This document shows positions 6,375 to 35,201 of a DNA stretch of 64,000 bases, piece by piece. Under the pieces are notes generated by a model. It made no database searches. It was not told the DNA's origin and saw nothing but the letters and a program-made list of their open reading frames with translations. The DNA lies in the NCBI GenBank assembly GCA_902826865.1, contig CADEGN010000003.1, forward strand, positions 1-64,000. Reading direction: 5' to 3'. The position numbers and the translations under genes were made by a program. Position 1 is the stretch's first letter, and each line of letters opens with the position of its first letter. This DNA is from an uncultured Myxococcales bacterium (GTDB lineage: Bacteria > Myxococcota_A > Polyangia > Nannocystales > Nannocystaceae).

Positions 6375-6497
6375 CGTCAACCTCGGAGGTGAAGTCCGGG
6401 GACGAAGCCGCCTGGTCACCGAATTTCTTTGGTGGGATAGCTCGCTAAAAGAGCTCAGAACGGCCGTTGCCGCGCCATCGTCAGTGTATCAGAAGCG

Positions 6498-9589: not shown

Positions 9590-9591
9590 TG

Positions 9592-18919: not shown

Positions 18920-19080
18920 GAGCTTGGTAGTCAGGCACTCCTTCTACGCGACTAAGGCGATCCAACTCCGGGGTCGCCAGCCCCCGACTCGAGATCCATC
19001 TCGCTCGCGCGAGACAAAGTCGCAGCTCGCGTGACTCGTCGTCAGTGCGAGCTGATACGATCCGAACTCGCGGGAGACCG

Positions 19081-20775
19081 ATGATTCGACGTATCTCGAG
19101 GATGGGCCCGCTCGTCGTCGGGACTGCGCTGGCCGGTGGATGCTACGCGGGTGGGTCAGGCTCGAACGCGATGGACGATGCGGCCGACGGTTCTGGCTCC
19201 GCCGCCGATGGCGATGACGCCGACGACGGACCGGGCGCGTACCCCGATGAGTTGCCGGCGCCAAGCCACCGCGTCGCACGACTCACCCATGAGCAATGGG
19301 ACAACACCGTCCGCGATCTCTTTTATCTGGATAGCGCGACGGGCCTGGCGGGCGAGTTTCGGCCTGATGCGGGCGTGTCCGGCTACTTGTTCGATAACGC
19401 GGCGCACAACCTGAGTGTCGACGAAGCCCTGTGGTCGGGCTACACCGTGGCTGCGGCCGAGGTTGCCGAGCTGGCCGCGAGCGATCCCGAGGTGCTCGCC
19501 GCGATAGGCAGCGGCGAGGATCCCGAGGCGTTTGTGCGCACATTCGGTCGGCGTGCGTTCCGGCGCGCGCTCGACGACGAGGAGATCACGCGCTATGTCG
19601 CACTCTTCGACGCCGCGCCGGAACTCTACGGGGTTACGGCGAGCTTCGAAGTGGGGGTGCGCCTGGTACTCGAGACGATGTTGCAATCGCCGCACTTCCT
19701 CTACCGCATCGAGCGAAGCGACGCCGTCGTTGGCGATGTCATCCCGCTCAGTAGCGACGAGGTCGCGTCGCGCCTTTCTTACTTCCTGTGGCGGTCGATG
19801 CCCGACGACGAGCTATTTGCTGCCGCCGACGATGACCTGCTGCGCGACCACGTGGAGATCGAATCCCACGCCCTCCGTATGCTCGCCGACCCCCGCGCCC
19901 GGCCCGTCGTTGGGTACTTTCACGACGCGCTTCTCGACGCCGACAAGATCGCGAATGCTGACCCGAACAGCACGATCTACGATGTTCCCCTCGATCTCGG
20001 CCAGCGCGCGCTGCAGGAGCAGCGGCGATTCCTCGAAGATATCGTGTTCGACAGCCGTGGAAGTTGGCGCGACGCATTGACGTCCTCGAGCACATGGGTC
20101 GACGCCGAGCTCGCTGCGGTCTACGGGCTTACCGGCGACTTCGGATCGGAGTTCGTCCGGGTCGAGCTCGATAGCAGTCAGAGGCGCGGTCTGCTCACGC
20201 ACGTCGGATTCCTGGCCGCAAATGCCACGTCTGTGCAGCCCGATCCGATCCACCGCGGCGTGTTCATCGCCAAGCGCCTGGCATGTGCAACGCTGCCTCC
20301 GCCGCCTGACAACGTGCCGCCCCTGCCGCCGATCGACCCGAGTCAGACGAACCGGCAAGTGATCGAGACGCTGACGGAGCAGCCGGGCAGCAACTGCGCG
20401 GGCTGCCACGCCGGCATTATCAATCCGTTCGGCTTTCCGTTCGAGAGCTTCGATGCCGTGGGCGCGTACCGGACGCTCGACAACGGCCAGCCCGTCGATA
20501 CGTCTTCAAGCGTTCCGCTGGGTAACGAGGTCACCCAGGTCGGCAACGCGCTCGACCTGGTGGTCGCGCTCGCGGAGAGTGAAGCGGTTCACCGCTGCTA
20601 TGCGAGCTACTGGGTGCAGTACGCGTTCGGTCGAGTGCTAGCGGATGAGGATGGCGCGTTGGTCGATCGGCTCGGCATTGGTTCCGCCGCCGACGATCTC
20701 TCGATCGAGGATCTTCTCGTCGGCGTCGTCACATCACGAGCATTCCTGAGCCGTGCAACGGAGGAGCTGCCATGA
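19081..20775 (+). CDS. DUF1592/DUF1588/DUF1585 lipoprotein (second copy)
   Basis: A 564-residue lipoprotein whose ATG follows a GGGAG ribosome site. The signal is MIRRISRMGPLVVGTALAGGC. It has the same domain order as the protein at 4710-6374: THEQWDNTVRDLF (DUF1587), FRRALDDEEI, a DUF1592 region with RLSYFLWRSMPDDEL, a DUF1588 block with CAGCHAGIINPFGF, and a DUF1585 tail. The CAGCH is a likely heme-binding motif. The gene overlaps the DUF1552 gene by four bases (20772-20775), repeating the organisation of the first pair. Confidence 0.85.
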   Translation: MIRRISRMGPLVVGTALAGGCYAGGSGSNAMDDAADGSGSAADGDDADDGPGAYPDELPAPSHRVARLTHEQWDNTVRDLFYLDSATGLAGEFRPDAGVSGYLFDNAAHNLSVDEALWSGYTVAAAEVAELAASDPEVLAAIGSGEDPEAFVRTFGRRAFRRALDDEEITRYVALFDAAPELYGVTASFEVGVRLVLETMLQSPHFLYRIERSDAVVGDVIPLSSDEVASRLSYFLWRSMPDDELFAAADDDLLRDHVEIESHALRMLADPRARPVVGYFHDALLDADKIANADPNSTIYDVPLDLGQRALQEQRRFLEDIVFDSRGSWRDALTSSSTWVDAELAAVYGLTGDFGSEFVRVELDSSQRRGLLTHVGFLAANATSVQPDPIHRGVFIAKRLACATLPPPPDNVPPLPPIDPSQTNRQVIETLTEQPGSNCAGCHAGIINPFGFPFESFDAVGAYRTLDNGQPVDTSSSVPLGNEVTQVGNALDLVVALAESEAVHRCYASYWVQYAFGRVLADEDGALVDRLGIGSAADDLSIEDLLVGVVTSRAFLSRATEELP

Positions 20776-22196
20776 AGATGATGGGCAGACGTGCGGTGCT
20801 GCGAGGCGTCGGTGGGATTTCACTGACGTTGCCGGTGCTCGAGGGCCTCCTGCCGCGGAGGGCGAGGGGAGGCGGCGCGGCGATCGAACCCTTCGCAGTT
20901 TTCTTTCGCCAGGCCAACGGTGTGGCCGCGGCGCAGTCGAGCGACGTCGGTGAAGAGCCCGAGCGCTTCTGGCCCACGCAGCTGGGCGCGCTTTCGGCCG
21001 CGACAATGCTGCCGGGCGAGCGCGCCGTCGGCGAGCTCGTCGATCACGCGCCGCGACTGCTCGTTGTCGGCAACGTCAACAAGGACGGCTTCGACTACGG
21101 CTGCGGACATGCGTTTGGGATGATGACAGGGCTAACCGCGCAGGGCGTGTTCGATCCAAGCGCCACCGAGCCCGAAGCGAACGGCGAGTCTCTCGACCAC
21201 CGCATCGGTCGCGAGCTCAACTCCGGGGGGCGTGACTCCTTGTTTCTCTACGCCGGCTCGACGTCTGGGGCGCTCGGCGGCGGTGGGTGTTCGTATCGCG
21301 GGCCGGGCGATCGTCGGGAGTTCATCCACAGTCCGGTGCAGGCGTACCAGCTAGTTGCCGGTCTCCCTGGGCAGGAGCTCGACGAGACGCTCGTCGCCCG
21401 CAAGAAGAGCATCAACGATCTCGTCCGCGGCGAGATGACCTCCTTGCTCGGGGGCACGAAGCTGAGTGGCGATGATCGCCTTCGTATCGAGCAGCATCTC
21501 GACGCGATTCGCGACCTCGAGGGCGCGCTGGGTTGCAGCCTGAGCGCCGACCAAGAGATGATGCTCGAGGGCATGTCGGCTGGCTACGATAGCGAGGATG
21601 GCCGCCTGGTCCTTGCCGCCGCACGCTTGCATATCGACGTCGCCGCGCTCGCGATCGCGTGCGGCTATACGCGGTCGGTGGCGATCCAGATCGGCGTGTC
21701 GAACAACAATACGACCCGCTTCGAAAACCTCGACAACGGCACCCTGATGGAGAACTACCACTACGTTTCCCATCGCTTGCTCTCCAACGGTGACACTGGC
21801 GAGATCATCCCCAACTCGGACATCCTTCACCACCACGTGGACGTTCAGCACGCGCGTACGTTCAAGCACCTGCTCGATCGACTCGTCGAGCACATCGCGC
21901 CAAACGGTCAGCCGCTCCTCGACTCTGGCGTCGCCATGTGGTGGAACGACCTTGCGAACGGTCCCGACCACAGCCGCTTCAACTGCCCGGTGATCCTCGC
22001 CGGCAGTGCGGGGGGCTACCTCAAGCAGGGGCAGTATGTGCGTGCCGACGGGGGCGACTATGACGGCAACAACGCGAAGCTGCTTAACACCATCGGCACT
22101 GCGGTTGGCCTCACGAACGCTGCCGGTGGTCCGCTGGACGACTTCGGTGATACGTCATTCGTCTCAACGGGCTTGCTCGACGCGATCCGTGCGTGA
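20772..22196 (+). CDS. DUF1552 family exported protein (second copy)
   Basis: A 474-residue protein beginning MKMMGRRAVLRGVGG, a Tat-like signal, followed by the DUF1552 pattern: FFRQANGVAA near the N-terminus, GCGHAFGMMTGLT, ELNSGGRDSLFLYAGS, and a late HYVSHRLLSNG / DILHHHVDVQHAR histidine-rich region. It overlaps the DUF1592 gene before it. Sequence identity to the copy at 3235-4713 seems low from reading, so this is an old duplication or a separately acquired pair. Confidence 0.85.
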   Translation: MKMMGRRAVLRGVGGISLTLPVLEGLLPRRARGGGAAIEPFAVFFRQANGVAAAQSSDVGEEPERFWPTQLGALSAATMLPGERAVGELVDHAPRLLVVGNVNKDGFDYGCGHAFGMMTGLTAQGVFDPSATEPEANGESLDHRIGRELNSGGRDSLFLYAGSTSGALGGGGCSYRGPGDRREFIHSPVQAYQLVAGLPGQELDETLVARKKSINDLVRGEMTSLLGGTKLSGDDRLRIEQHLDAIRDLEGALGCSLSADQEMMLEGMSAGYDSEDGRLVLAAARLHIDVAALAIACGYTRSVAIQIGVSNNNTTRFENLDNGTLMENYHYVSHRLLSNGDTGEIIPNSDILHHHVDVQHARTFKHLLDRLVEHIAPNGQPLLDSGVAMWWNDLANGPDHSRFNCPVILAGSAGGYLKQGQYVRADGGDYDGNNAKLLNTIGTAVGLTNAAGGPLDDFGDTSFVSTGLLDAIRA

Positions 22197-22206
22197 GGGC
22201 GGTGTG

Positions 22207-22755
22207 TCACAGGCCCGGCAGCGGTAGCGTGTCGCGCCAAGCGTACGCGATCTTGGTGGTGGGCCGCGAACCGAGCTGAATCCGTTCGTCGGCGATCGCA
22301 ACCGCACCGCAGCCCTCGTAGACGAAGCGCGCGTCATTCTCGGCGAGGACCCACACCATCACCGGCGCGAGTCCCCGCTCGACGATCTGCCAGAGTGCGT
22401 GGACCAACAGCCGTCGCCCAGCGCCGCGGCGCTGCCAGGTTGGATGGAGGTAGAGCTCGTAGATCTCACCAAGGCACGAAAATCTCCGATCGCGCTGCGG
22501 CCCACACCACGCGTAGCCAAACGGCAGGTTGTCATCGTCCTGGGCGATCCAAACGTGTTCGCCGGGCGCGCGCTCCCCGATGGCCCGCCGCATGCGCTCC
22601 CCATCTCCAACTACAATTCGCTCGAGCGTGCGCGCGGGGATGATCTCACGGTAGGCGGCGCGCCAGCTCGCCGCGCGCACGAATGCGAGCCGCGGCGCGT
22701 CCCCCGGTCGCGCGGCGCGAATCGAGAATGACTGCGTCGGTGCCCCCACGGGCAT
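22207..22755 (-). CDS. GNAT family N-acetyltransferase
   Basis: A 182-residue protein with GNAT architecture: FSIRAARPGDAPRLAFVRA at the N-terminus, then the acetyl-CoA-binding motif A IYELYLHPTWQRRGAGRRLL (the R/Q-x-x-G-x-G/A loop), and a C-terminal strand with Y-x-x-C-G-A. The substrate cannot be told. Its start overlaps by 28 bases the likely start of the divergent radical SAM-peroxiredoxin gene at 22728, so the control regions of the two genes must be shared or internal. Confidence 0.8.
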   Translation of the reverse strand: MPVGAPTQSFSIRAARPGDAPRLAFVRAASWRAAYREIIPARTLERIVVGDGERMRRAIGERAPGEHVWIAQDDDNLPFGYAWCGPQRDRRFSCLGEIYELYLHPTWQRRGAGRRLLVHALWQIVERGLAPVMVWVLAENDARFVYEGCGAVAIADERIQLGSRPTTKIAYAWRDTLPLPGL

Positions 22756-24239
22756 CTGGGCAGGTTAGCACTCCCGCGTGTCGCTGCGCTATCCTGGTCG
22801 GAAGGAGGATCCAAACGTCCCTGGCAAGTCATTCTGGGACAGGCCGCGCGCGCCGCCGTGCCGACCTAAAAACAGGCACCACTTGCAACAGCAATTGCGT
22901 GTTCTGTGTGATCGGCGATCACCTGTTCACCGGCGATCGCACCACCGAGGCTTGCATTGCCGAACTCCGCGAGAGCCGAGCGACCTGCGACGATGTCGTG
23001 TTTACGGGGGCCGAGGTCAGCATCCGTCCGGACTTCTTTACGCTCGTGCATGCCGCCCGGCAGCTCGGGTACCAGCGGATCCAAGTGCAGACGAACGGAC
23101 GCATGTTCGCCTATCGCGAGTTCTGCGAGCGCGCCGTTGCAGCTGGCGCCAATGAGTTTTCGCCCTCGATTCACGGCCATCAGGCGAAACTCCACGACGG
23201 TCTAACGCGTGCGGAGGGGTCATTCGCCCAGATCGTTTCGGCGATCGAACACTTGGTCGCCCTCGGCCAACGCGTCGTGACGAACACGGTGATCACCAAG
23301 CAGAACGCGCGGCACCTTCCCGCTTTGGCCCGCATGCTGATCGATCTCGGCGTCGCGCAGTACCAGTTGGCTTTCCCGCACCCTACAGGACACGCGGCGA
23401 CGTATTTCGCGGGCGTGGTGCCGCGGATGTCGGAGATCGCGGAGTACGTGCACGCAGCGCTCGCGCTCGGCCGTGCGGCCGGGGTGATGTGCATGGCTGA
23501 AGCGATCCCTTTTTGCCACATGCACGGCTACGAGGACGCCGTCGCCGAGCTTCACATCCCGCCGACGGAGATCGTTTACGACGGCTACGTGGTGCCAGAC
23601 TACGCGGCCGATCGGATCGCCCGCGGCAAGGTTCGCTTCGCCGGATGCGCGACCTGCCGGTTCGAGCCGATCTGCGAGGGTCCGTGGAAGGAGTACCCGG
23701 CGCGCATGGGTGACGCCGAGTTTATCGCGGTCCCCGGGCCGCGGATCGTCGACCCTGCGCTGGTGTTGGACGGTCGCTGGCGAGCGCTCGGCCGCGTTGT
23801 ACCGCCGACGGTGCGCGCCGGCGCAAGCTGGCGCGCTCTCTGCTTCGTCCCCGAGGCTGGCTCACCGGCGTGCAGCCGCCAGCTTCGGGGCTTGGTCCGC
23901 GATCGTACGCGCTTGCGCGAGGCAGGCATCGACGTCGTGGTGATCTCGCCTGATCGGCCCGAGGTTCAGCTGGCCTGGGCCGCTGGCTGCGGATCATCCC
24001 TGGCGCTCATCTCGGACGTTGATCACAGCCTTGCCGTCGCCTGCGATGCGCCCGGGCGCACCAGCGTCATCGTCGATCCCAACGGACGCATCGCCCACCT
24101 CGTGCTCGACGTTGATGTCGACGCCCATGCGGCCCAGCTCGTCGCAGCGATCGTTCGTCTTCGCGCTCCGCCGCGCCCGCTCGGTGTTGCCGAAGACCTG
24201 GTGGTCCTCCGCCGAAACGTCGCTGGAGCGGCTCCGTGA
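22728..24239 (+). CDS. Radical SAM enzyme fused to a peroxiredoxin-like domain
   Basis: A 503-residue protein and the first gene of the Hxs-type cluster. Residues 53-60 hold the radical SAM motif CNSNCVFC. The usual GGEP motif appears as TGAEVS (near residue 94), a marked departure. An auxiliary cysteine motif CATCRFEPICEG (C307, C310, C316) closes the SPASM-like part. Residues ~367-475 look like a peroxiredoxin/AhpC-TSA domain: LCFVPEAGSPACSRQ (peroxidatic-type C382), VVVISPDR, LALISDVD and TSVIVDPNGRIAHLV. I know of no standard enzyme with this fusion. The ATG at 22728 is the only canonical start that keeps the domain; a Shine-Dalgarno-like AAGGAGGA at 22802-22809 points to a shorter form from CTG 22821. 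The end overlaps the next gene (GTGA). Confidence 0.82.
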   Translation: MTASVPPRASGQVSTPACRCAILVGRRIQTSLASHSGTGRARRRADLKTGTTCNSNCVFCVIGDHLFTGDRTTEACIAELRESRATCDDVVFTGAEVSIRPDFFTLVHAARQLGYQRIQVQTNGRMFAYREFCERAVAAGANEFSPSIHGHQAKLHDGLTRAEGSFAQIVSAIEHLVALGQRVVTNTVITKQNARHLPALARMLIDLGVAQYQLAFPHPTGHAATYFAGVVPRMSEIAEYVHAALALGRAAGVMCMAEAIPFCHMHGYEDAVAELHIPPTEIVYDGYVVPDYAADRIARGKVRFAGCATCRFEPICEGPWKEYPARMGDAEFIAVPGPRIVDPALVLDGRWRALGRVVPPTVRAGASWRALCFVPEAGSPACSRQLRGLVRDRTRLREAGIDVVVISPDRPEVQLAWAAGCGSSLALISDVDHSLAVACDAPGRTSVIVDPNGRIAHLVLDVDVDAHAAQLVAAIVRLRAPPRPLGVAEDLVVLRRNVAGAAP

Positions 24240-26038
24240 AGGCGCTGATCAAGGTCGGCTACGCGTGCAACGAGCACTGCACCTTTTGCCACACCCAGGA
24301 GCTCCGCGAGATCCAGGGCACGAGCGCCGACGTTGAACGCAAGATCGATCGCGCCAAAGCTCTTGGCCACACGATGGTCGTGCTCTCGGGCGGCGAACCG
24401 ACGATCCGACCTGAGCTCATGCATTGGGCCGGACGCGTCGCTGCCGCCGGCATGGACTTTGGTCTCGTTACCAACGGGCTCGTCCTCGCCTACGCTGAGG
24501 TCCTCGAACGCCTCCTCGCGCTGCGCCTACGTTACGTGTACATGTCGCTCCACTGTGGCGTGGGGGAGACCCACGATCGAATGGTTCGAGCGGAGTCGTT
24601 CGCCACGGCTCTGCGAGCGCTCGACAATCTCCAGGGCCGCGGATTGCAGCTGACGGTCAATTGCGTGGTGACGCGCGCCAACCTCCGACAGCTGCGCTCG
24701 CTCGTCGATGTGATCGCGCCACGCACCGATGCCGTGCTTAAGTTCTCGGCGGTCGAACCGAAGGGAGGGGCCCTGCGCCTGCACGACCTTGTGGTCCCGC
24801 GCATCTCAGAGTCCGCGGCCGCCGTGCTCGACGCGCTCACCTACGGCCGGGCGGTGATGCCCGGGGGCGATGCTCGCCTGCGTCACGGTGGATTTCCGCT
24901 GTGCCTGCTGCCCGGCTTCGAGCACTCCTACGACGATCTGCGCACCCACGCCTACTGGACGATGGTTGAGACCGACGAGGCCAACTTCTACCCCGTCGAC
25001 GATCGCAACAAGCAGCATCCGTCGCCGACGTGCGACGATTGCCGGCTTCGCGGGCCGTGTCCCGGCCTGTTTCGCGCGTACCACCAACGCTACGGCGCCG
25101 ATGAGCTGCGGCCGCAGACGCTCGGCGTCCGCGGCAACGCGTTCGACTGGGTGCTCGAAGCAGTCGATGATGCGCCGTCGCAGGGATGCCCGCTCCGCGA
25201 CGACGGTGTGACTCCGTGGGAGCCGGCACGGCATCTCTTCGTGCGTCACCAGGGCCGCGTTGCCCGCTACCGCGCGACGACGCGCGATTTTCACGACGAT
25301 ACGCTCACGCGGGCAAAGCACGAGCTCGGGCAGATCTACCTCGACGCCTCTCGCAAACCCGCGCCGAACGATTTTGCCCGCGATCTCGTCAAGCTATCGC
25401 GCAGCGAGATGTGTTCGCCGTGTCCGGAGCGGGCGCACTGTACGGGGATGTTCGAGCCCGAATTCTCCGACGTGTTCGAACGCGACGACGCCGCAGTGCG
25501 AACCCGGCTCGCAGCCTTGGCCGGCGACGTGCTGGAGATCGGCTGCGGATACGGGCGCACCACCGATGTTTGGCGCCCCGGCCTCGAGGGGGGCACGCTG
25601 CGCTACACGGCGGTCGACCCGGACCCGGAGGCGATCGCAGCCACGCAGGCCGCGCTGCCGGCCGCAACGCTGCACTGCGGCGAAGCCGAGCTTGTGCTGA
25701 CCGCACTGCCGACCGGCGGCTTCGACCACGCGGTGGCCCTGCACGCCTGGAATCATCTCGGCGATGCTGTGGCGGTGATCGATGCCCTCGCGCGCGTCGT
25801 CCGTCCTGGCGGCGAGCTGTGGCTGGTCGACGATGGCGTGTTCGGGCTGGCCCGTACGCGGGCCCAGCACGAGCTCGCGCAGCGCAGCGAGGCGGCGTTG
25901 CAGCACCACCGCAACGACGATGCCGGGCGCGCCCATGCGAGGATCGCGGGGCGCGGCTGGACGTTGGTGGAGCGCCATGACGTCGGGCCCACCACCAGCA
26001 ACCAGTGGCTGCTACGCTACCAGCGGTGCCCGACATGA
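24236..26038 (+). CDS. Radical SAM enzyme fused to a SAM-dependent methyltransferase
   Basis: A 600-residue fusion starting at a GTG that overlaps the preceding stop. The radical SAM motif CNEHCTFC is at residues 11-18, with a canonical SGGEPTIRP at 51-59. Auxiliary cysteines follow in CDDCRLRGPCPG (C266, C269, C275) and again in CSPCPERAHC (C393, C396, C402). Residues ~430-600 form a class I methyltransferase: motif I VLEIGCGYGRT, an acidic AVDPDPEA strand end, and the post-motif VRPGGELWLVDDG. It probably installs a radical modification and a methyl group, or a related change, on a peptide. The methyltransferase may instead act alone. The gene ends in an ATGA overlap with the next gene. Confidence 0.85.
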   Translation: MKALIKVGYACNEHCTFCHTQELREIQGTSADVERKIDRAKALGHTMVVLSGGEPTIRPELMHWAGRVAAAGMDFGLVTNGLVLAYAEVLERLLALRLRYVYMSLHCGVGETHDRMVRAESFATALRALDNLQGRGLQLTVNCVVTRANLRQLRSLVDVIAPRTDAVLKFSAVEPKGGALRLHDLVVPRISESAAAVLDALTYGRAVMPGGDARLRHGGFPLCLLPGFEHSYDDLRTHAYWTMVETDEANFYPVDDRNKQHPSPTCDDCRLRGPCPGLFRAYHQRYGADELRPQTLGVRGNAFDWVLEAVDDAPSQGCPLRDDGVTPWEPARHLFVRHQGRVARYRATTRDFHDDTLTRAKHELGQIYLDASRKPAPNDFARDLVKLSRSEMCSPCPERAHCTGMFEPEFSDVFERDDAAVRTRLAALAGDVLEIGCGYGRTTDVWRPGLEGGTLRYTAVDPDPEAIAATQAALPAATLHCGEAELVLTALPTGGFDHAVALHAWNHLGDAVAVIDALARVVRPGGELWLVDDGVFGLARTRAQHELAQRSEAALQHHRNDDAGRAHARIAGRGWTLVERHDVGPTTSNQWLLRYQRCPT

Positions 26039-26514
26039 GTGAGTCCCTCTTCGGTATGCCCCCCGCCAACGTCGACGCCGACATCGCCGAGGGTCGGGTC
26101 GCGCTGACCGTCGACACCTCGCTGCATTCGCTCGATGCGATCTACGCGGCGGCCTATGCGTTCATCGGCCGGTGCTATGTGCTCCTCGAGCGGCCCGCGC
26201 CCGAGCGCGTGCGGGTGGTGCTCGCTCCCAAGCCAAGCGGTGCCGACGGGGACGCCTTGCGGGCGCTGATCGGCGAATTCGCCAACGAACTGCTCTCGGC
26301 CACGTGGCGGCGCGAGATCACGCGTTCAAACCGTGCGCTGATCGAGGCCGTCACCATGCAGGCGTTCGCAGGTGCCCTTGGGTCGCCATCGCTCGACGAC
26401 CTCGAGGCGTTTCAGTTTGGCGACGAGCCATTCGAGGACCCCCTCGGGATCGCGCAATCGTGGGAGGAGAAGTACCGCAAGAAACCGCGGACGCCCGAGG
26501 AGCCCACCGAATGA
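26035..26514 (+). CDS. HxsD-like protein, long form
   Basis: A 159-residue protein. The N-terminal ~95 residues fit the small HxsD family of His-Xaa-Ser systems: VALTVDTSLHSLDAIYAAAYAFIGR, then YVLLERP, RVRVVLAPK and GEFANELL. The family is found beside hxsB/hxsC radical SAM genes and is presumed to help bind the precursor. The C-terminal ~65 residues (to KKPRTPEEPTE) are extra compared with the usual ~100-residue HxsD. It starts by an ATGA overlap with the methyltransferase fusion and ends by another with the next gene. Assignment is from pattern and context. Confidence 0.72.
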   Translation: MSESLFGMPPANVDADIAEGRVALTVDTSLHSLDAIYAAAYAFIGRCYVLLERPAPERVRVVLAPKPSGADGDALRALIGEFANELLSATWRREITRSNRALIEAVTMQAFAGALGSPSLDDLEAFQFGDEPFEDPLGIAQSWEEKYRKKPRTPEEPTE

Positions 26515-26732
26515 TCGAGCTCCGGTTTCATCGCGATCTCTACGCGGGCACGGCGATCGACAGCGCGTTGGGCCGGTTTGCTGGGGTCGCGCGGTTCGTC
26601 CGCCGTGAAGATGGCGCAGACTTCGTCGTCGAGGTCCACGCGCAATCGCCCGGGCGCGAGCGCACGGTTGCGGGCGAGCTGGCCAACTTCGCCCTCGGAC
26701 TCACCGTCGAAGCCGGAGGACCCGATCGATGA
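26511..26732 (+). CDS. HxsD-like protein, short form
   Basis: A 73-residue protein, MIELRFHRDLYAGTAIDSAL at its start. It has the same pattern as the gene before it: a first strand, Tyr, an Ala-rich helix, a 'FVVEV' strand, and a closing GELANFAL that parallels GEFANELL in the longer protein. I therefore read it as a minimal HxsD paralog. Both of its ends are ATGA overlaps, with the long form upstream and hxsB downstream, so it is made in step with both. It is too short to be an enzyme and probably acts in peptide recognition or as a subunit. Confidence 0.65.
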   Translation: MIELRFHRDLYAGTAIDSALGRFAGVARFVRREDGADFVVEVHAQSPGRERTVAGELANFALGLTVEAGGPDR

Positions 26733-28204
26733 AGCTACCGGTTTCGGACAGCCGCTCATATGCAGCCTTCTTTCGCTTCCGCGAGCTCGGAGAGCACGTC
26801 GTCGTGACCAGTCTCGAGGGCGAATGGGTCGTCCTTCGCCGCGACGAGTTCTCGGCGTTCGCCAATGGCAAGGTCGAGCCCGGAAGCGACCTCGACGTCC
26901 GCCTGCAGGCACGCAACCTCGTGCGGGAGCACTTCGACGTCCGCCGCGCCGCCGAGACGATGGCGCGTCGGCGTCGTTTCGTTCACGGCGGGCCAAACCT
27001 CCACCTTGTGGTCGTCACGTTACGGTGCAACGAGACATGCGTGTACTGCCACGCCTCGCGCGCCGATCTCGATGCGGTCCACACCGATATGACGCCGGAG
27101 ATCGCCGACGCGACGGTCGACATGATCCTCCGTACCACGAGCCCCCACGTGACGATCGAGTTTCAGGGGGGCGAACCGTTGGTCGCGTTCCCGATCGTGG
27201 AGCGCATCGTCGAGCGCGCCGTCGAGAAGAACCGCTCCGCGGGCAAACAGCTCGAGTTTACGATGGTCAGCAACCTCGCCCTGATGGATGAGGACAAGCT
27301 CCGCTGGCTCCTTGGGCACCGCGTGCAGATCTGCACCAGCATCGACGGGGCTAAGTCGCTCCACGACAAACAGCGCGTGCTCCCGATGGCGTCGAGTTGG
27401 GACACGGCGACCAAGTGGATCGCGCGGATCAACGCGGCCTACGCCGAGGCCGGGCTGGATCCGACGCTGTACCACGTGGAGGCCCTCCTCACGACCACGC
27501 GCGAAACGTTGAGTCGCTGGCGCGAGGTCGTAGATACGTACGTAGAGCTCGGTTGTCGCGCGCTCTTCTTGCGCCCGGTTGATCCCTTCGGCTTCGCGGA
27601 GAAAACCCGGCGCGTGGTCGAGTACCCACGCGCCGAATATCTCGCGTTTTATCGCCACGCGCTTGACTACATCATCGAGAAGAACCGAGCTGGTGTGGAG
27701 ATTCTCGAGCGCTACGCGGCGATCTTTCTGACCAAGATCCTCACCGGCGATGATCCGAATTTCCTGGATATCCGCAGTCCGGGCGGTGCCGGGATCGGGC
27801 AACTCGCCTACAACTTCGACGGCAAGGTCTTCAGCTCGGATGAGGGCCGGATGCTCGCTGCGGCGGGGGATCCCACCTTCTTGCTGGGCGATGTCCGGAG
27901 CTCAAGCTACCGCGAGATCGTCGGTCACCCGACGATCCGGGCGATGGCGATCGCGTCGAACCTGGATGGTCAACCGGACTGCATCGATTGCACATACGTC
28001 CCCTACTGTGGGACCCAGCCCGAGCACAATCACAAAACGCTCGGGACGATGATGGGTCGAATGCGGGAGAGCTCGATGTGTGCTGTGCACAAGGGCATCC
28101 AGGACATCTTGTTTGAGAAGCTGGCGACGGCGGACAACGAAACTCTCGAGATCCTCCGCCGCTGGACCACCATCCGGCCGCGCGAGCACTTCCTGCAACC
28201 GTGA
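26729..28204 (+). CDS. hxsB: His-Xaa-Ser system radical SAM maturase HxsB
   Basis: A 491-residue radical SAM enzyme that fits HxsB along its length. The N-terminal ~90 residues (FRFRELGEHVVVTSLEGEW, LRRDEFSAF) form a small recognition-type domain. Then come TLRCNETCVYC (C100, C104, C107), IEFQGGEPLVAFP, and a C-terminal SPASM-type set with CIDCTYVPYCG (C418, C421, C427) and a last Cys at 451. HxsB enzymes act with HxsC and HxsD on a His-Xaa-Ser repeat protein; the exact bond formed is not something I can state. It is coupled by overlap to the short HxsD-like gene. The precursor gene comes 259 bases downstream. Confidence 0.88.
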   Translation: MKLPVSDSRSYAAFFRFRELGEHVVVTSLEGEWVVLRRDEFSAFANGKVEPGSDLDVRLQARNLVREHFDVRRAAETMARRRRFVHGGPNLHLVVVTLRCNETCVYCHASRADLDAVHTDMTPEIADATVDMILRTTSPHVTIEFQGGEPLVAFPIVERIVERAVEKNRSAGKQLEFTMVSNLALMDEDKLRWLLGHRVQICTSIDGAKSLHDKQRVLPMASSWDTATKWIARINAAYAEAGLDPTLYHVEALLTTTRETLSRWREVVDTYVELGCRALFLRPVDPFGFAEKTRRVVEYPRAEYLAFYRHALDYIIEKNRAGVEILERYAAIFLTKILTGDDPNFLDIRSPGGAGIGQLAYNFDGKVFSSDEGRMLAAAGDPTFLLGDVRSSSYREIVGHPTIRAMAIASNLDGQPDCIDCTYVPYCGTQPEHNHKTLGTMMGRMRESSMCAVHKGIQDILFEKLATADNETLEILRRWTTIRPREHFLQP

Positions 28205-28409
28205 GGCGGCGCACCGGTGAGCGGGGCTGGCATCGACCACGGCCTCGGCGGCTGTGCGCGCCGTTTCGCGCCCCTCCCAAGAGCCCCAGGCCGGCCCTCA
28301 CGATGCCGAGAAAGCCCGCGGCGTTGCCGCGCGACCCGCAGGGCCCGTGCGATCTCCCGTCCCAGCGCCCGCTGCCGGTGTCTGCGGCGTGACCCACGGG
28401 CCGGCTGGT

Positions 28410-28441
28410 TTGTCACCGAGCCAAGCCTTGGGCCTGATAAC
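28410..28441 (+). promoter_or_regulatory. Weak promoter candidate before the precursor gene
   Basis: TTGTCA at 28410-28415 and GATAAC at 28436-28441 resemble -35 and -10 boxes but are separated by 20 bases, wider than the usual 16-18. The only gap in the operon (28205-28463) lies here, which would be a sensible place for extra transcription of the precursor. Evidence is weak. Confidence 0.15.
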
Positions 28442-28463
28442 ATGCCGAGCTGGGGAGCCCGCT

Positions 28464-28742
28464 ATGCCCGACGACCCGTCGTCTGACGCAACGACGGACC
28501 TGCCGGTCCCGAGCTACACAGCGACGCCAACGGCGTTACTCACCAGCGAGCAGCGCGAGGTCTCCGCGCGTGCCCGCGCGAACGCTGACGAGCGCCCGAA
28601 CGACGTCCGAGGCGAGCAGGCGATGGCTGTTCCAACACACTGTTCCCACGGCAGCCACGGATCCCACGGCAGCCACGGATCTCACGGCAGCCACGGATCC
28701 CACGGCAGCCATGGATCCCATGGCTCGCACGGGAGCTGGTGA
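28464..28742 (+). CDS. hxsA: His-Gly-Ser repeat RiPP precursor (HxsA-like)
   Basis: A 92-residue peptide, not an enzyme. Residues 1-58 are an acidic, Pro/Ala/Thr-rich leader-like segment (MPDDPSSDATTDLP at the start, SEQREVSARARANADERP in the middle). One cysteine (C60) and one Ser precede exactly ten tandem His-Gly-Ser units (residues 62-91), and the protein ends in Trp92. His-Xaa-Ser repeats are the signature of HxsA, the target in Hxs systems, here with Xaa always Gly. GGGGAG at 28452-28457 is a good ribosome site for the ATG at 28464; in-frame codons further upstream are less convincing. The next gene begins on the base after its TGA. Confidence 0.85.
   Translation: MPDDPSSDATTDLPVPSYTATPTALLTSEQREVSARARANADERPNDVRGEQAMAVPTHCSHGSHGSHGSHGSHGSHGSHGSHGSHGSHGSW
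28647..28736 (+). repeat. Tandem repeat coding ten His-Gly-Ser units
   Basis: Ten 9-base units. The synonymous codons alternate GGC-AGC and GGA-TCC (TCT in the fourth unit), so the true DNA period over the first eight units is 18 bases. The last two units differ: CAT-GGC-TCG, then CAC-GGG-AGC, the last of which contains the GGGAG before the next start codon. Confidence 0.95.
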
Positions 28743-29789
28743 ATGGTGCGGGGAAGCATCGAACAGCGCGTTGCCGGCAAACGTGAACGGGTGCACGTGC
28801 TCACCGGTGCCGTGTGCAACAACAATTGCATCTTCTGTATGGAGGAGGATCGGGACGGCAGGTACCAGACGAATTCGGCAACGACCGACGCGACGGTGCG
28901 GTGGATCCTCGAACACAACCGAGACACCGAGGAGGTCTGCTTCACCTCCGGCGAGCCGACCACGAATCCCGCGTTGCCGCGATGGATCGCCATGGCCAAG
29001 GCCGCGGGCGTTCCGACCATAAGCGTCATGACCAACGGGCGCGCCCTGTCGTACGAGCGCTACGCGAAGGGCCTCGTCGCGGCCGGGCTCAACCGCGTCT
29101 ACATCTCCATCCATGGCCACGAGGCGCGCCTGCACGAGGGCCTGACCCGCACCCCGGACAGCTTCGCCCAGACCGTCGCCGGACTCGACGTGGTCGCCGG
29201 GCTGCGGCGCTACGGAGTTGCGCTGCACACTTCAACCGTGGTCACGAAGCGAAACCTGCCGCATGTGACCGCGATCTATCGGTTCTTGCGCAGCCACGGC
29301 GTCGATCAGGTCGTGTTCAATGTGATGCAGGCCAACGGAAGAGCCGACACCTATTTCGAGCAGCTGTTTCCCACCTACAGCGAGATCGCCGGTGAATTCG
29401 CCCGTTTCGTGCACGAACAGGCCCGCATCGAGTCCCGGCCGATGGCGTTCCTCGTCGATATTCCGCTGTGCACCACCGAGGGCGTGCCCGACTTCAACCG
29501 TGGCTACGTGGAGAGCTACGTGCACTTTGAGCCGAGCGTCACAGGCCAAGGTGGTGGGACCGATGCCGGCCTGCTCTCGGCCGAGGCCCTCGCCGAGCGT
29601 CGTACGGGATCGAGTGGCGAGCTAGTTCGCATTCGCCGCGCGGACCTCGACGATGCGCGTCGACACAAGCGCGAGGCGTGCGGACGTTGCCGCTACAATG
29701 GCGTCTGCGAAGGCGTGTGGGGCAACTACCTCCGGCGCTACGGCTGGAACGAATTCGAACCCACGCCGGCGGAGGCGGTTGCGCAGTGA
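28743..29789 (+). CDS. Radical SAM enzyme adjacent to precursor (HxsC position)
   Basis: A 348-residue radical SAM protein with CNNNCIFC at residues 25-32, FTSGEPTTNP (SGE in place of GGE) near residue 70, SIHGHEA at 122-128, and an auxiliary CGRCRYNGVCEG (C313, C316, C322) followed by NYLRRYG. It sits where an HxsC-type second maturase would be expected and has the right length. Its sequence looks closer to the radical SAM part of the gene at 22728 than to HxsC as I remember it, so I give no symbol. Its ATG directly follows the precursor stop with no spacer, and its ribosome site GGGAG (28731-28735) is inside the last HGS repeat. Confidence 0.83.
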   Translation: MVRGSIEQRVAGKRERVHVLTGAVCNNNCIFCMEEDRDGRYQTNSATTDATVRWILEHNRDTEEVCFTSGEPTTNPALPRWIAMAKAAGVPTISVMTNGRALSYERYAKGLVAAGLNRVYISIHGHEARLHEGLTRTPDSFAQTVAGLDVVAGLRRYGVALHTSTVVTKRNLPHVTAIYRFLRSHGVDQVVFNVMQANGRADTYFEQLFPTYSEIAGEFARFVHEQARIESRPMAFLVDIPLCTTEGVPDFNRGYVESYVHFEPSVTGQGGGTDAGLLSAEALAERRTGSSGELVRIRRADLDDARRHKREACGRCRYNGVCEGVWGNYLRRYGWNEFEPTPAEAVAQ

Positions 29790-32002
29790 CCGACGAGCCC
29801 AAGGTGGACGAGCTCGCGCACAAGCGCGCGACCGTGGACGAGCCTGCGGCCGCGAAGCGACCGACCAACTTCGTTCAGCCGCGCATGTCTCTCGAACCGC
29901 GGGCTGGGACCCAGCGCGTGCTGTACGTCGGCGAGAGCACCCGTGAGCTCACTACGCTCACGGGGCTACTCGCGGATGCGAGTGACCCGAAGTACGTCGT
30001 CGATCACGCGGCGGATGATCAACTCGCGATCGCGGCGGTCAGCTCCGCGGAGTACGACGCGCTGCTCGTCGACGTCGCCGACGACCAACGCCTGTGGACC
30101 CGCCTGCTCCGCGACCGCCGACTTCCGCCGATTCCGGTGGTGGCGATCGATAGCATCGGCAAGCCGGCCCAGCGTACCGCCCGTCGTTCCACCCTCGTTC
30201 AGGAGGGGGCCGATGCCGTCGTACTCCGATCCGAGCTAAGCGGTGCGTTGCTTGAGGCGACGATCCACGCGGCCGTTGAGCGCGGCCGAATGCGTAAGGC
30301 GCTCTCGGAAGTTCAAGAGCGGTTCGCCCTCGCCGTGCGTGGGAGCAACGACGGTGTGTGGGAGTGGCTCCTCGATTCCGGCGAGATGCACTTTTCCCGC
30401 CGCTGGCGCGAGTTGCTCGGGTACGGACTCGACGATCTCTCCAACTCCGTCGACGAGTGGTTTGGGCGCGTGCATCCCGGGGACCTTGCGGCCCTGCGCG
30501 CAGACATTGAGACCCATCTGGCCGGCGAGAAGGCGTTCCACGAGAACGAGCACCGCTTGCGTGCCAGCGACGGGACCTACCGCTGGGTAATCAGTCGTGG
30601 GGTCGTGCAACGCGATGCCGTGGGTCGTCCGTTGCGCATGGCTGGTTCGCTGACCGATACCTCAGACTATCGCCTGCGCGAGCAGAAGCTCCGCGATGAG
30701 AGCCGCCAGGATCCGCTCACGGGCCTACCGCGGCGTGAGCCCTTCATGGAGCGGGTCTCCCGCGCAATCGAGCTCAGGCAACAGGACGAAAACTACTCTT
30801 ACACCGTGCTGATGATCGACGTTGATCGATTCCGTTGGTTGGCCGACAGCATCGGCCACCAGGCCGCCGATTCAGTCCTGGCCATCCTCGCCCGTCGTTT
30901 GATCGGTTGCGTGCGACCGGAGGACATGGTGGCGCGCTTCGGCGGCGACAAGTTCGCGGTGATGCTTGAGAACCTCGACGACGTCAACGCCGGCACCGAT
31001 ATCGCCAATAGGATCCGCACCGCGATTCACGATCCGTTCGAGGTCGAGGGCCAGACTGTCTACGCGACGGTTAGCATCGGACTCACGTCGAGCGCGCGCA
31101 ACTACGACGATCCCGACGAGATCATCAGCGACGTGAGCGCTGCGGCCAACAAGGCCAAGGAGCGGGGCCAGGACCGTCATGAGGTCTTCGAAACCAAGAT
31201 GCGCATCGACGCGCTCACCCACTTGCGGCTCGAGGTAGCGCTACGGCAGGCGGTCGAACGCAGCGAGTTCGAGCTCAACTACCAGCCAATCGTGGCGCTC
31301 GACAGCAGGCGGCTGGTGGGATTCGAGGCGCTGACGCGGTGGCGCCATCCGCGACGCGGACTGGTACCGCCATCCGAGTTCATCCCCGTCGCGGAGCAAA
31401 CCGGGCTGATTCTGCCGATCGGGCGCTGGGCGATCGCAGAGGCAGTGCGCCAGCTCAAGCGCTGGAACGAGGCGCTGCCCGAGCACCAGCCGCTGACGAT
31501 GAGTGTCAACCTTTCGGGGAGGCAGCTCGCCGATCCGCGGCTTCTCGAGGAGATCGAGATCGCGTTGGCCAACAGTGACCTGCCGCCTGGATCGCTGCGC
31601 ATGGAGCTCACCGAGAGCGTGCTGATGGAGAACGCGGAGACGGTCCTGCGGGTCCTCGAGAGTCTGCGGAGCGCCGGCGTGCGGATCTGGGTCGACGATT
31701 TCGGCACCGGGTACTCATCACTTTCGTACCTGCACCGATTCCCCGTCGACGGTCTGAAGATCGACAAGTCGTTCGTCGACGTTCTCGACGGAAGCGAGCA
31801 CGGGGCCGCGATGATCCGGACGATCGTTGGGTTGGCACAAGCTCTCCATGTCGAGGTGATCGCCGAAGGGATCGAGCACCGATCGCAGGCTGAAGAGCTC
31901 CTCCGGCTCGGCTGTCCGCGTGGGCAGGGTTTTCTGTTCGGCGAACCCCTGCGCCCGGCCCGGGTCGCCGAGATCTACTCGGCGGTTCCGGTGGCCAAGT
32001 AA
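29786..32002 (+). CDS. PAS-GGDEF-EAL protein, probable c-di-GMP phosphodiesterase
   Basis: A 738-residue signalling protein. Residues ~35-160 resemble a degenerate receiver domain (VLYVGES, ALLVDVADD). A PAS domain follows (LAVRGSNDGVWEWLLDSGEM, with PAC-like YRWVISRG). The GGDEF domain carries GGDKF instead of GGDEF, so cyclase activity is doubtful. The EAL domain looks complete: FEALTRWRHP, SVNLSGRQL, MELTESVLM, DDFGTGYSS, LKIDKSFV, EGIE and GQGF. It should therefore lower c-di-GMP, perhaps with GTP sensing by the GGDEF part. The GTG at 29786 overlaps the stop of the radical SAM gene, with GGAGG at 29771-29775. This places it in the Hxs operon. Longer in-frame starts run back into that gene. 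Confidence 0.85.
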   Translation: MTDEPKVDELAHKRATVDEPAAAKRPTNFVQPRMSLEPRAGTQRVLYVGESTRELTTLTGLLADASDPKYVVDHAADDQLAIAAVSSAEYDALLVDVADDQRLWTRLLRDRRLPPIPVVAIDSIGKPAQRTARRSTLVQEGADAVVLRSELSGALLEATIHAAVERGRMRKALSEVQERFALAVRGSNDGVWEWLLDSGEMHFSRRWRELLGYGLDDLSNSVDEWFGRVHPGDLAALRADIETHLAGEKAFHENEHRLRASDGTYRWVISRGVVQRDAVGRPLRMAGSLTDTSDYRLREQKLRDESRQDPLTGLPRREPFMERVSRAIELRQQDENYSYTVLMIDVDRFRWLADSIGHQAADSVLAILARRLIGCVRPEDMVARFGGDKFAVMLENLDDVNAGTDIANRIRTAIHDPFEVEGQTVYATVSIGLTSSARNYDDPDEIISDVSAAANKAKERGQDRHEVFETKMRIDALTHLRLEVALRQAVERSEFELNYQPIVALDSRRLVGFEALTRWRHPRRGLVPPSEFIPVAEQTGLILPIGRWAIAEAVRQLKRWNEALPEHQPLTMSVNLSGRQLADPRLLEEIEIALANSDLPPGSLRMELTESVLMENAETVLRVLESLRSAGVRIWVDDFGTGYSSLSYLHRFPVDGLKIDKSFVDVLDGSEHGAAMIRTIVGLAQALHVEVIAEGIEHRSQAEELLRLGCPRGQGFLFGEPLRPARVAEIYSAVPVAK

Positions 32003-32067: not shown

Positions 32068-33318
32068 TTAGAATTGCACGGGGTAGGTCGTGCCCTGCTG
32101 GGCGGACCCGAAGCGCTGGAACGTCGCTGACTTGAGCGCGTCCGCGACGCACTTACCGGCGGGCAGGCTATCGTGCGGAGCGAGAGCTTCGGCGGACAGA
32201 ACCTCCCCGGAATCCCCGGAGATGGAGACCTTCACGCGAACTGTCGTCCCAGGCTCGATCGCGTGCTGCGACCCGCACGCTTTGGCTTTGCCCTTCGCCG
32301 AGGAGAACCCCTCGCGGATCTGCTGGGCCGTCAGTTTGTCGGCCAACGCAGAATCGAGATCGGCAGCTGCGCGGCTCTTCCGCAGGATCTCGCCGCAGCC
32401 GGGCTTGCTCGGATCGAGCACACACTCCTTGCGGTGGCGCTCGTCGATCTCCTTAGGGTCGGCAAACGGATCCTCGGCAGGTCCGCTCGGTGGCGCCTTG
32501 GCGCCGGGCGCCGACTTCTCGGCCGCGGGCTCTTCTGCGCCTTTCTTGGCGCGCCCTTTCTTTACGCTGACGTCGACCTTCTCCTCGGCCTGCGGTTCCG
32601 GGGGCGGCTCTACGACCTCCTCGGGTTCGGGTTCGGGTTCGGGGGGCGGCGGTGCTTCGACCTTCGGTGCTGGCCTGGGCTCGACCTTGGGTGGCGGCTC
32701 AGGCTTTCGCTCCGACGCGCTTGCTGCGCTGCGAACCTCGGTGTTGGCCACCTTCGGCGGAGGGCTGTTGTCGCGCATCGCGTACCAGCCGATCCCGAGT
32801 AACGCCACGGCCGCGGCTGCGATCCACAGGCCGTTGTTGTTCTTCGGCTCCGCGGAACTTGGGCGCGGCGTCGATGCTGCGGAAACGCTCACCGGGGCGC
32901 TCGGCCGAGAACCCGCGAGTGCAGCTGCGGCGGCCGCTTCGGCGGCGCGTTCTTCCCGCTCTTCCACGGACGTCGCCGGCTTCGCCGTTGCCGCCGACGT
33001 CGCTGGCTTGGCCTCGGGCGCAATGGTGGGAGGGATGATCGGAGGCGATGGTTTTACGGGCTCGACCTCGGTGGCAGGGATCTTCTTCGCCAGGGGTTCG
33101 ATTCTGTTGGCAGCCTCGGCTGGCCCGGGTGCCGCCGCAACGCTGGCCACGAGGCCCGCTGTCTCGATCTCGTCGACCTCTTCGAGCGCGTCGTGGTCGT
33201 TGTCGTGGTCTTCGCTCTCCTCGATTCCGAGCGACGCGGCGACTTCCATGATGTCAGAGAGACCCGAGCTCTCCGCAGGAGCGCGCTCTCCGTCTTTGTC
33301 TTCAGCAACGGTACCCAT
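32068..33318 (-). CDS. Membrane protein with AgmX/TonB-like C-terminal domain
   Basis: A 416-residue protein. Residues 1-150 are cytoplasmic, acidic and low-complexity (SDIMEVAASLGIEES, then Pro/Ala/Lys-rich). One membrane segment follows (GLWIAAAAVALLGIGWYAM, about residue 172), then a Pro/Glu/Lys-rich periplasmic spacer. The last ~110 residues form an AgmX/PglI-type C-terminal domain (KACGSQHAIEPGTTVRVKVS, GKCVADALKSATFQRF). Such proteins occur in myxobacterial envelope and gliding-motility systems. The ATG at 33318 has AAGGA nine bases upstream and is better than the longer frame from 33369. It is followed by the hairpin at 32016-32047. Confidence 0.75.
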   Translation of the reverse strand: MGTVAEDKDGERAPAESSGLSDIMEVAASLGIEESEDHDNDHDALEEVDEIETAGLVASVAAAPGPAEAANRIEPLAKKIPATEVEPVKPSPPIIPPTIAPEAKPATSAATAKPATSVEEREERAAEAAAAAALAGSRPSAPVSVSAASTPRPSSAEPKNNNGLWIAAAAVALLGIGWYAMRDNSPPPKVANTEVRSAASASERKPEPPPKVEPRPAPKVEAPPPPEPEPEPEEVVEPPPEPQAEEKVDVSVKKGRAKKGAEEPAAEKSAPGAKAPPSGPAEDPFADPKEIDERHRKECVLDPSKPGCGEILRKSRAAADLDSALADKLTAQQIREGFSSAKGKAKACGSQHAIEPGTTVRVKVSISGDSGEVLSAEALAPHDSLPAGKCVADALKSATFQRFGSAQQGTTYPVQF

Positions 33319-33627
33319 TTCAGGTAATCCTTCCGCACACAGGGGGCCGCGGCACTGGGCCGCACGCATTTGGGTTCACTGTGGTCCCCCTCACGGTCCA
33401 CCGCGAACGCGGGCTCATTGTAGCTCGGGTCATGGCGGACCGCCGGTAGGGGTGCACGGTGGGAGCGTGACCTAGCATGGTGACGTTGTCGCGCCGGCGC
33501 CATGGCCTTACGGCCACGCGGATCATCGCCCATCTAGCTACATGGCGCTCGAACGTGATTCCTTCGTGGGTCTCGGGCCGTGTCACTGCTGCAGTCATTG
33601 CCCCGGCCGGGCGCGGGCTTCATCGCG
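33319..33627. other. Intergenic stretch with no gene seen
   Basis: About 310 bases between two minus-strand genes. It must hold the promoter of the AgmX-type gene, but I found no convincing -35/-10 pair, hairpin or small gene. Short frames here have no start context or recognisable sequence. Confidence 0.5.
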
Positions 33628-35043
33628 TCAGGGTGCGTGCGGCTCGGGAGCGTTCGGGCGGCCAGTTGGCTCCGCGGGCGCGGCCGAAGATGGCGAAGCC
33701 GCGCCTCCAGCCGCGTCGTTCGGTCCTTGGCCCGCGTCGAGACTGGCCGGCCCCAGCTTGCCGCGATTCCGCTTGAGCCAGTTCTCGTTGCGCTCGCGCC
33801 GCTGGGCCTCGAGATCTTCGGGTGTCTTCTTGAGCATACGCGCCGACTCACCCGCGAGGATCTCGAGGATCTTCGCGGCCTGTTTGGTCTCGAAGCGACC
33901 CCACAGGTGGAGCTCGCGATCCACACGGTCGACTTCTAGCATGTCGATGACCATCGACTTGATCATCATGCCCTTCAGACCGGTGAGCTTGTTGGGAAGT
34001 TCTTCCTTCCACCAGTTCTCGGCCGCCTTCGCGTCCACAACGGAAGCGAATTCGACGCGCAGGAACAGTTCAGGATCTTCCGTCGCCTCGACCGAGAGCT
34101 CGATCCCATTGGGCGCCTCGAACGGCAGGTTCACGCGCTTGAGCGCGGCGCGGATGTCCTTCATCACCAGCTGAAGCCCGGCAGTTGGCTGGGTAGCGGC
34201 GAAACGGCGCAAGCGCGCGAGGTTGGCGACGAAGTTGCCGGACGTCTTCGTGCTACCGACCTCGTCGGCCAGGATCTGTGGGAGAAACTCCTCGCGCACG
34301 TACACCGCCACGCGATCCGGTAGCAGCACGAACCACCGCGCGTCGAGGTCGGGGTCGTTGCCGTCGGCCGGGCGCGGGTTGCCGCGAACGATCCCATTTT
34401 CTTCGATCCACTCGATGACATCGTCGTTACGCCGCGCCGCACGCTCGATGGCACGCATGACGTCGTCGCGGCTCATCTTGTACTCCACCGCGAGGAACGT
34501 CTGCCGCCAATCGCGGATGTCAGGGCTCGCGATCACGATGTACTCGAAGTCGCCCAGGGCATCGAATCCGCCCCCTGCGATGAGGTAGTCGAAGTCGGGC
34601 AGCGGCGCCATCAAGTCAACCGCCGGCTCGCGAAAGCTCAGCTTGCGGATCTTCTTGGGGACCAACATCGCGTAAAACGTGCTGTTGGTCGGTCCAAGCT
34701 GGTCGACTTTCGAGCGGCGCTCGCCGAGGTCGTGATCGTCGCCCGGTTCGGGTTTCGCCGGTTCGGGTTTCGCCGGCTCGGGTTTCGCCGGCTCGGGTTT
34801 CGCCGGCTCGGGTTTCGCCGGCTCGGGTGTTGTCGGTTCAGATTTCGGCGGAGGCGGCGCGGTGCCCTGGACCTTGTCGGGATCGATTAGTTCGACCTCC
34901 GTGAACTCGAACTCGTGGTCGAGGTCAAGGTCTGGGACGAAACGCAGGGCGCCCCACAGCACGGGTGCTGCGTGCAGGACGCCCGACGCGATCGCCGAGA
35001 GCAGGTGTCGGCCGCGTGCGCGCATCCGAACGGCTTGGAACAT
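33628..35043 (-). CDS. TonB-like envelope protein with EPAKP repeats
   Basis: A 471-residue protein. The N-terminus has one membrane segment (HLLSAIASGVLHAAPVLWGAL), then FEFTEVELIDPD, which resembles the start of TonB. A Pro-rich spacer with five EPAKP repeats follows. The rest (~330 residues) is a folded region I do not recognise; it has FRFVLL-like strands and a helical C-terminus, and ends in a low-complexity Pro/Ala tail. The fold is probably periplasmic. TonB similarity is limited to the N-terminal layout; there is no TonB C-terminal domain. Its partner is unknown. Confidence 0.65.
   Translation of the reverse strand: MFQAVRMRARGRHLLSAIASGVLHAAPVLWGALRFVPDLDLDHEFEFTEVELIDPDKVQGTAPPPPKSEPTTPEPAKPEPAKPEPAKPEPAKPEPAKPEPGDDHDLGERRSKVDQLGPTNSTFYAMLVPKKIRKLSFREPAVDLMAPLPDFDYLIAGGGFDALGDFEYIVIASPDIRDWRQTFLAVEYKMSRDDVMRAIERAARRNDDVIEWIEENGIVRGNPRPADGNDPDLDARWFVLLPDRVAVYVREEFLPQILADEVGSTKTSGNFVANLARLRRFAATQPTAGLQLVMKDIRAALKRVNLPFEAPNGIELSVEATEDPELFLRVEFASVVDAKAAENWWKEELPNKLTGLKGMMIKSMVIDMLEVDRVDRELHLWGRFETKQAAKILEILAGESARMLKKTPEDLEAQRRERNENWLKRNRGKLGPASLDAGQGPNDAAGGAASPSSAAPAEPTGRPNAPEPHAP
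34751..34825. repeat. Five 15-bp tandem repeats coding EPAKP
   Basis: Five consecutive copies of GGTTTCGCCGGCTCG (first copy GGTTCG at its end) inside the TonB-like gene, encoding EPAKP on the minus strand. Near-identical codons suggest recent slippage expansion of the Pro-rich spacer. Confidence 0.9.
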
Positions 35044-35201
35044 AGCATTCGCGCAGGGGGACGTCGAAAAGCGCCGCGATCGGACCGTGGCCCGGGAGAC
35101 CGGCGATGCAGCCTTTTTGAACGCCCTGGGTCGAGGGTCTCCAACTGTGCGCGGTTTGCTGCTAGCTTGTCGCGCGGGACGATCCTCTTGTGGAGTTTGG
35201 C

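Follow-up and report, generated by a model that had tools for sequence, protein, structure and literature searches.

A predicted enlarged His-Xaa-Ser maturation locus of the HxsA4/HxsC4 type in Myxococcota, with two radical SAM fusion proteins and a fifth radical SAM protein encoded upstream

The His-Xaa-Ser (Hxs) system was reportedly predicted in 2011 by Haft and Basu. The locus described here shares with that system (TIGR03976/03977/03978) HxsB, HxsD, an HxsC-like partner and a His-Xaa-Ser repeat precursor, all encoded co-directionally, but it is without canonical HxsC and has in its place HxsC4 and at least three further HxsC-like radical SAM (rSAM) proteins. The subtype names HxsA4, HxsC4 and HxsD-like are already known from NCBIfam (NF038313, NF038332, NF038315), and the peptide, the HxsC4 protein encoded by the adjacent gene and the HxsD-like protein of our locus exceed the respective cut-offs; what is new is the enlarged enzyme set, comprising two fusions and a fifth rSAM, of which the proteins labeled P0001 (rSAM-peroxiredoxin, Prx), P0002 (rSAM-methyltransferase, MT) and P0009 (the fifth rSAM) fall outside the NCBIfam names. 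The literature searched had no report of HxsA4, of HxsC4 or of a product with HGS repeats; it named no product of any Hxs system and no modification of one, and HxsB appears there only as an uncharacterized cluster (PMC9062424).

Two other groups of enzymes invite comparison. The rSAMs that make triceptides, or three-residue cyclophanes (MscB, HaaB, YhhB), form His C2-Cβ(Ala) and Phe C4-Cβ(Ser) links at i/i+2, and our locus has in common with them a motif three residues long in which i is aromatic and i+2 is Ser or Ala (PMC11002830), whereas its HxsB scores below all cyclophane-family cut-offs and has only half of the SPASM Cys set. As far as the accessible portion of the source goes, RiPP rSAM methyltransferases of classes A–C comprise rSAM-only, cobalamin-domain and HemN-like-domain enzymes (PMC11285071); P0002 would likewise combine rSAM chemistry with methyl transfer, but it differs from the classes set out in that portion in joining an rSAM/twitch part to a four-Cys module and a classical class I methyltransferase.

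The DNA analyzed, hereafter the window, is a 64,000-nucleotide stretch on contig 3 of an 8.5-Mb Myxococcota genome. A first-pass annotation had described eight co-directional genes at 22.7–32.0 kb, separated by 0–4 base junctions apart from a single 259-base gap, and this layout was borne out. All eight genes lie on the + strand and encode HxsB, an HxsC4-type protein, HxsD, an HxsD-like protein, HxsA4, two HxsC-like rSAM fusions and a PAS-GGDEF-EAL protein; 4-base overlaps occur at 24236–24239, 26035–26038, 26511–26514, 26729–26732, and 29786–29789, and the peptide stop at 28742 abuts the next start at 28743 with no bases between. The start proposed for the first gene, 22728, was not upheld: CTG 22821 is the more likely one, because it stands about ten bases after the Shine-Dalgarno sequence AAGGAGG and the starts of relatives immediately precede RRADLKTG. 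The 259-bp gap (28205–28463, + strand) contains an extended −10-like element, TGnTAnnAT, at 28435–28443 that is similar in three congeners, and from this alignment we infer a probable separate hxsA promoter. GTG 28254 was rejected as the start of the peptide gene; ATG 28464 agrees with the family start. Flanking the cluster are adjacent DUF1592-type (PSD4/PSCyt3) and DUF1552 (HXXSHH) genes that precede it and are probably unrelated (19045–22196, + strand), and three long ORFs without a Pfam match, which are putative genes, downstream (32068–36383, − strand).

The Hxs identity given to the locus withstood comparison with the curated NCBIfam cut-offs. HxsB (26729–28204) scored 537 against a cut-off of 370 (TIGR03978), HxsD (26035–26514) 50.0 bits, exactly at the cut-off of 50 (TIGR03976), the HxsD-like protein (26511–26732) 63.7 against 41 (NF038315), the 92-aa HxsA4 precursor (28464–28742) 73.8 against 55 (NF038313), and the product of the gene after the peptide (P0007, 28743–29789) 607 against 500 (NF038332), so that the last is assigned as an HxsC4-type enzyme. 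P0001 and P0002 reached only 173 and 79 bits with the HxsC4 model, far below its cut-off of 500, and none of P0001, P0002 and P0009 met the cut-off of a named NCBIfam family among the matches listed. In a tree, P0001-like and HxsC4 proteins each formed one group (SH-aLRT 98 and 100, respectively) and P0002-like proteins grouped together apart from a long-branched canonical HxsC row; the two label changes for P0002-like proteins arise only because this very long-branched sequence falls with them. Canonical HxsC (TIGR03977) was rejected as the partner: P0007 scored 84.7 vs. 267.9 bits, the window genome gave no match at E ≤ 1e-25, and only 2 of 53 Myxococcota genomes tested had a protein over the cut-off.

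All four rSAM proteins of the cluster carry CxxxCxxC and match Pfam Radical_SAM at 37.9–75.2 bits (cut-off 29.5). The first-pass annotation had counted three rSAMs besides HxsB, which is correct for the interval; HxsC4 fills the HxsC slot, however, hence only two are extra there, and the inventory missed a fifth rSAM of the pathway 9 kb upstream (11.9–13.7 kb). The fused peroxiredoxin-like and methyltransferase domains that it had proposed are real, with matches of 44.7 bits to AhpC/TSA (cut-off 26) and 51.6 bits to a methyltransferase family (cut-off 21.2). Assembly errors were ruled out as the origin of the fusions, which are the same in independent genomes.

HxsB has the rSAM Cys motif and one auxiliary Cys set (C418, C421, C427, and C451) that is invariant in 45 of 45 sequences. 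The full SPASM pattern for two auxiliary clusters (CX9-15GX4C plus CX2CX5CX3C...C) was not met, as the other half is absent and only those four residues are invariant outside the rSAM motif. HxsB also fell below all cut-offs for cyclophane-forming families (AmcB 47.5/425, YhhB 47.2/445, FxsB 38.6/370) and scored nearer to PapB, QhpD and CcpM, which are mostly thioether formers; the solved structure nearest to it by sequence is 5wgg, which we take to be the thioether maturase CteB. A 47-row alignment supports the predicted homology of HxsD and includes a conserved C-terminal motif, DDPLGIAxSWEEK. At L138–L145, a C-terminal DDPLGIAxPWEEK, possibly a docking tail, is nearly invariant across families. 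The AlphaFold model of HxsD has a β-α-β-β-α-α fold. An RRE of the PqqD-like winged-helix type was considered for HxsD and rejected, as the fold differs and the 50 best PDB matches (lowest E 0.008) include no PqqD or RRE. At four loci (L156–L159, in genomes G072, G057, G103, and G052), an HxsD and HxsD-like pair lies directly 5′ of a stand-alone methyltransferase with no adjoining HxsB, an arrangement hinting that HxsD pairs may serve several enzymes.

The two fusions are unusual enzyme designs: an HxsC-type rSAM with a BCP peroxiredoxin, and an HxsC-type rSAM with a four-Cys middle module and a class I methyltransferase. In P0001 (22821–24239), whose rSAM part is HxsC4-like, the BCP/PrxQ-type peroxidatic motif PxxxT/SxxC is met (PEAGSPAC in the window, PxxxSPxC in relatives), and the resolving Cys (x4-C), kept in most relatives, is lost in the window. 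The Prx fusion is confined, among loci examined, to the genus of the window, L033, and L060/L064; Prx lineages with a readable peptide have HCS at the first repeat, but so do many lineages without Prx, which leaves a link between the fusion and this Cys tentative at most. In other families a P0001-like rSAM without Prx adjoins HxsB. P0002 (24236–26038, 600 aa) has invariant Cys residues in the rSAM motif (C11/15/18) and in a first auxiliary set (C223, C266/269/275); a second set (C318, C393/396/402) is near-invariant and stays with the MT half where the halves are split. Its AlphaFold model (pLDDT 93.5) resembles BlsE/SkfB together with class I methyltransferases, and no solved counterpart of the whole joined protein was found among the top structural matches. 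Unfused P0002-like rSAMs also adjoin HxsB in other families.

The last gene of the cluster (29786–32002) encodes the PAS-GGDEF-EAL protein, identified by Pfam and conserved motifs. GGDKF replaces GGDEF in the window and in L031, L032, L034, and L167, so the GG(D/E)EF signature of an active diguanylate cyclase is not met, and the EAL, DDFGTG and KIDK motifs are intact; from these residues we read the protein as a putative c-di-GMP phosphodiesterase. Its gene adjoins Hxs genes in L031–L034 and L167.

P0009, the fifth HxsC-like rSAM (11944–13698, start approximate, + strand), is 584 aa long, has two CxxCx5C motifs and matches Radical_SAM at 68.6 bits; its best NCBIfam match is HxsC4, under the cut-off. 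Full-length relatives stand beside Hxs genes, and it is ~45–60% identical over its length to rSAMs near Hxs genes at many loci. In a survey of 78 genomes, P0009 was present in 53 of 56 HxsB-positive vs. 1 of 22 HxsB-negative genomes, a count not corrected for phylogeny and with mostly small genomes as the latter controls, and 38 of the 54 carriers had another Hxs gene no more than 20 kb away from it. The sole HxsB-negative carrier (G140) has weak HxsA4 matches. Because genomes that lack HxsC4 have it too, P0009 looks more central than HxsC4. Just upstream of it are genes for a NuoG-like molybdopterin oxidoreductase and a NuoF-like flavoprotein of the formate-dehydrogenase type (6740–11151, − strand).

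HxsC4 relatives were taken from genomes, and their loci were annotated with profiles built in this analysis. Gene order is conserved in relatives: the full series rSAM-Prx, rSAM-MT, HxsD, HxsD-like, HxsB, HxsA4, HxsC4, EAL recurs in four other genomes (L031–L034), which argues against a chance cluster. In Enhygromyxa, Kofleriaceae, Sandaracinaceae and others (L047, L049–L052, L085, L087), the cluster is shorter, with no Prx or EAL; in two Archangium MAGs (L060, L064), the Prx fusion is retained and the EAL gene is absent. Across 379 Myxococcota genomes, HxsC4 exceeded its cut-off in 35 and HxsB in 125 (126 in the count used for the co-occurrence comparison). HxsB was present in every HxsC4 genome (35/35), in every genome with the full rSAM-MT fusion (32/32) and in 111 of the 113 HxsA4 genomes counted (all without correction for phylogeny). 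In family f28, one locus holds HxsD, HxsD-like, HxsB and a P0002-like rSAM together, and a second holds HxsC4-like, P0001-like and P0009-like rSAMs; in some genera of family f2, a P0001-like rSAM adjoins HxsB and the HxsD pair lies 5′ of the stand-alone methyltransferase (L132–L135, L156–L159). Since other lineages hold them in separate loci, the enzymes appear to form a single pathway rather than a cluster that arose by chance. Co-occurrence and linkage thus support the earlier suggestion of a pathway richer than the core Hxs system; the multiply modified peptide proposed as its product remains an inference, with no modification observed.

The HxsA4 peptide has a leader of the form xxLPSF...QREISDKAxxxAD and, in the window, a tail HCS-(HGS)10-W at 28638–28739 with perfect HGS repeats. 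Across the ten HGS units the codons vary (three for Gly and four for Ser, the latter from both Ser families) and the amino acids do not, from which we infer that selection acts on the protein. The tail consensus in 58 complete relatives is H(C/A/G)S-(HGS)n-HG(S/Q)W, with the HG(S/Q)W end in all 58; of 799 middle triplets scored, 786 were HGS, seven HAS and six HGQ. A few peptide rows were counted from a later repeat, which inflated the “G” class at the first position. Repeat number ranged from 6 to 50 per peptide. In the longest repeat tail seen (L191, genome G020), HAS is interspersed among the 49 His-x-Ser/Thr matches. Whether or not a lineage has HxsC4, its tail is the same, and we therefore infer that the core modification should depend on HxsB, HxsD and the fifth rSAM, with the rest decorating.

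We consider it probable (roughly 0.8) that the locus encodes an enlarged version of an HxsA4/HxsC4-type maturation system, which is a claim about the pathway and not about its chemistry. What we observed, and what the claim rests on, is the assignment to families, the gene order, the co-occurrence and linkage, and the invariance of the catalytic Cys and of the tail; that all of the rSAMs act on the HxsA4 peptide, and every chemical step, is inferred, with no product or activity measured. In such a system, the HxsD pair would bind the HxsA4 leader, and HxsB with the phylum-wide HxsC-like rSAM (11.9–13.7 kb), aided by the HxsD pair, would act on the repeat triplets, HxsB and the HxsC-like rSAMs presumably processing them one after another. 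Depending on the lineage, HxsC4, P0001 and P0002 may in addition cross-link, oxidize or methylate the repeats or the Cys/Trp caps, the methyltransferase and peroxiredoxin parts might serve to finish or protect, and the phosphodiesterase at the operon end could couple production or use to c-di-GMP in the clade of the window. For the core chemistry, our leading guess is that His-to-Ser cross-links (i to i+2) are made iteratively, one on each HGS; we hold it weakly because HxsB is far below the cyclophane-family cut-offs and nearer to mostly thioether formers (PapB, QhpD, CcpM, 5wgg). The guess is an analogy, suggested by triceptide chemistry (PMC11002830).

The evidence also bears on other explanations. 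The HxsA4, HxsC4 and HxsD-like families already stand in NCBIfam, the Prx fusion and EAL gene are restricted to few clades, and eight HxsC4 genomes lack the full rSAM-MT fusion, all of which would suit a plain HxsA4/HxsC4 system in which the two fusions and the EAL gene are lineage neighbors with other substrates. We find this unlikely given that HxsB accompanies all 32 rSAM-MT fusions, that unfused P0001-like and P0002-like rSAMs adjoin HxsB in other families, and that HxsD pairs also stand directly 5′ of a stand-alone methyltransferase (L156–L159). Less likely still, the HGS peptide is left unmodified as a structural or metal-binding tail and the rSAMs make a small molecule; the almost one-to-one co-occurrence of HxsA4 and HxsB (111/113) and the invariance of tail and caps where accessory enzymes differ tell against this idea, which draws only on the lack of any observed modification so far.

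The precursors of PQQ and mycofactocin are examples of resident cofactor-type maturation, and the HxsA4 peptide may similarly become, through its maturation, a resident protein of cofactor or metal-binding type and not a secreted bioactive RiPP, a proposal to which we give somewhat less than even odds. It concerns the use of the product and is compatible with an enlarged Hxs maturation system. We found no recurrent transporter, protease/peptidase or immunity family near Hxs loci, which is unusual for a secreted RiPP and counts against our preferred explanation; because exporter, peptidase and immunity families do not recur, we regard a resident role (cofactor, metal-binding, structural) as being as likely as a secreted one. 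The near-invariance of the tail phylum-wide, the spread of HxsB over 125 of 379 genomes, the scattering of genes over unlinked loci and the His-rich repeat with a Cys near its start point the same way, but a repeat number of 6 to 50 is odd for a defined cofactor and the accessory enzymes differ between lineages. Going further, it is conceivable, if rather doubtful, that a phylum-level Myxococcota line of at least five rSAMs turns the 6–50-unit His-Gly-Ser polymer into a rigid chain, cross-linked many times over, capped and, in some lineages, also methylated, with a resident structural or redox role; if true, this chain would be a peptide-derived material with no characterized counterpart.

The locus and its relatives supply a complete inventory of parts, in which a core set is joined by three optional modules that are each gained or lost in nature, and cultured hosts exist (Nannocystis, Enhygromyxa, Polyangium, and Minicystis), so that the function of Hxs enzymes becomes directly testable. 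Outside the phylum, a 10-kb contig of 33% GC from a Candidatus Altiarchaeota archaeon MAG (JAUUZA010000022.1, positions 1–10355; L108) carries an end-truncated HxsB-like gene (307.5 bits vs. a cut-off of 370), several further rSAM genes and a gene for a His-Ser/Thr repeat peptide that is hydrophobic over a stretch at its N-terminus and contains CSCGC shortly before its end. This is possibly an archaeal Hxs system, or else a mis-binned contig.
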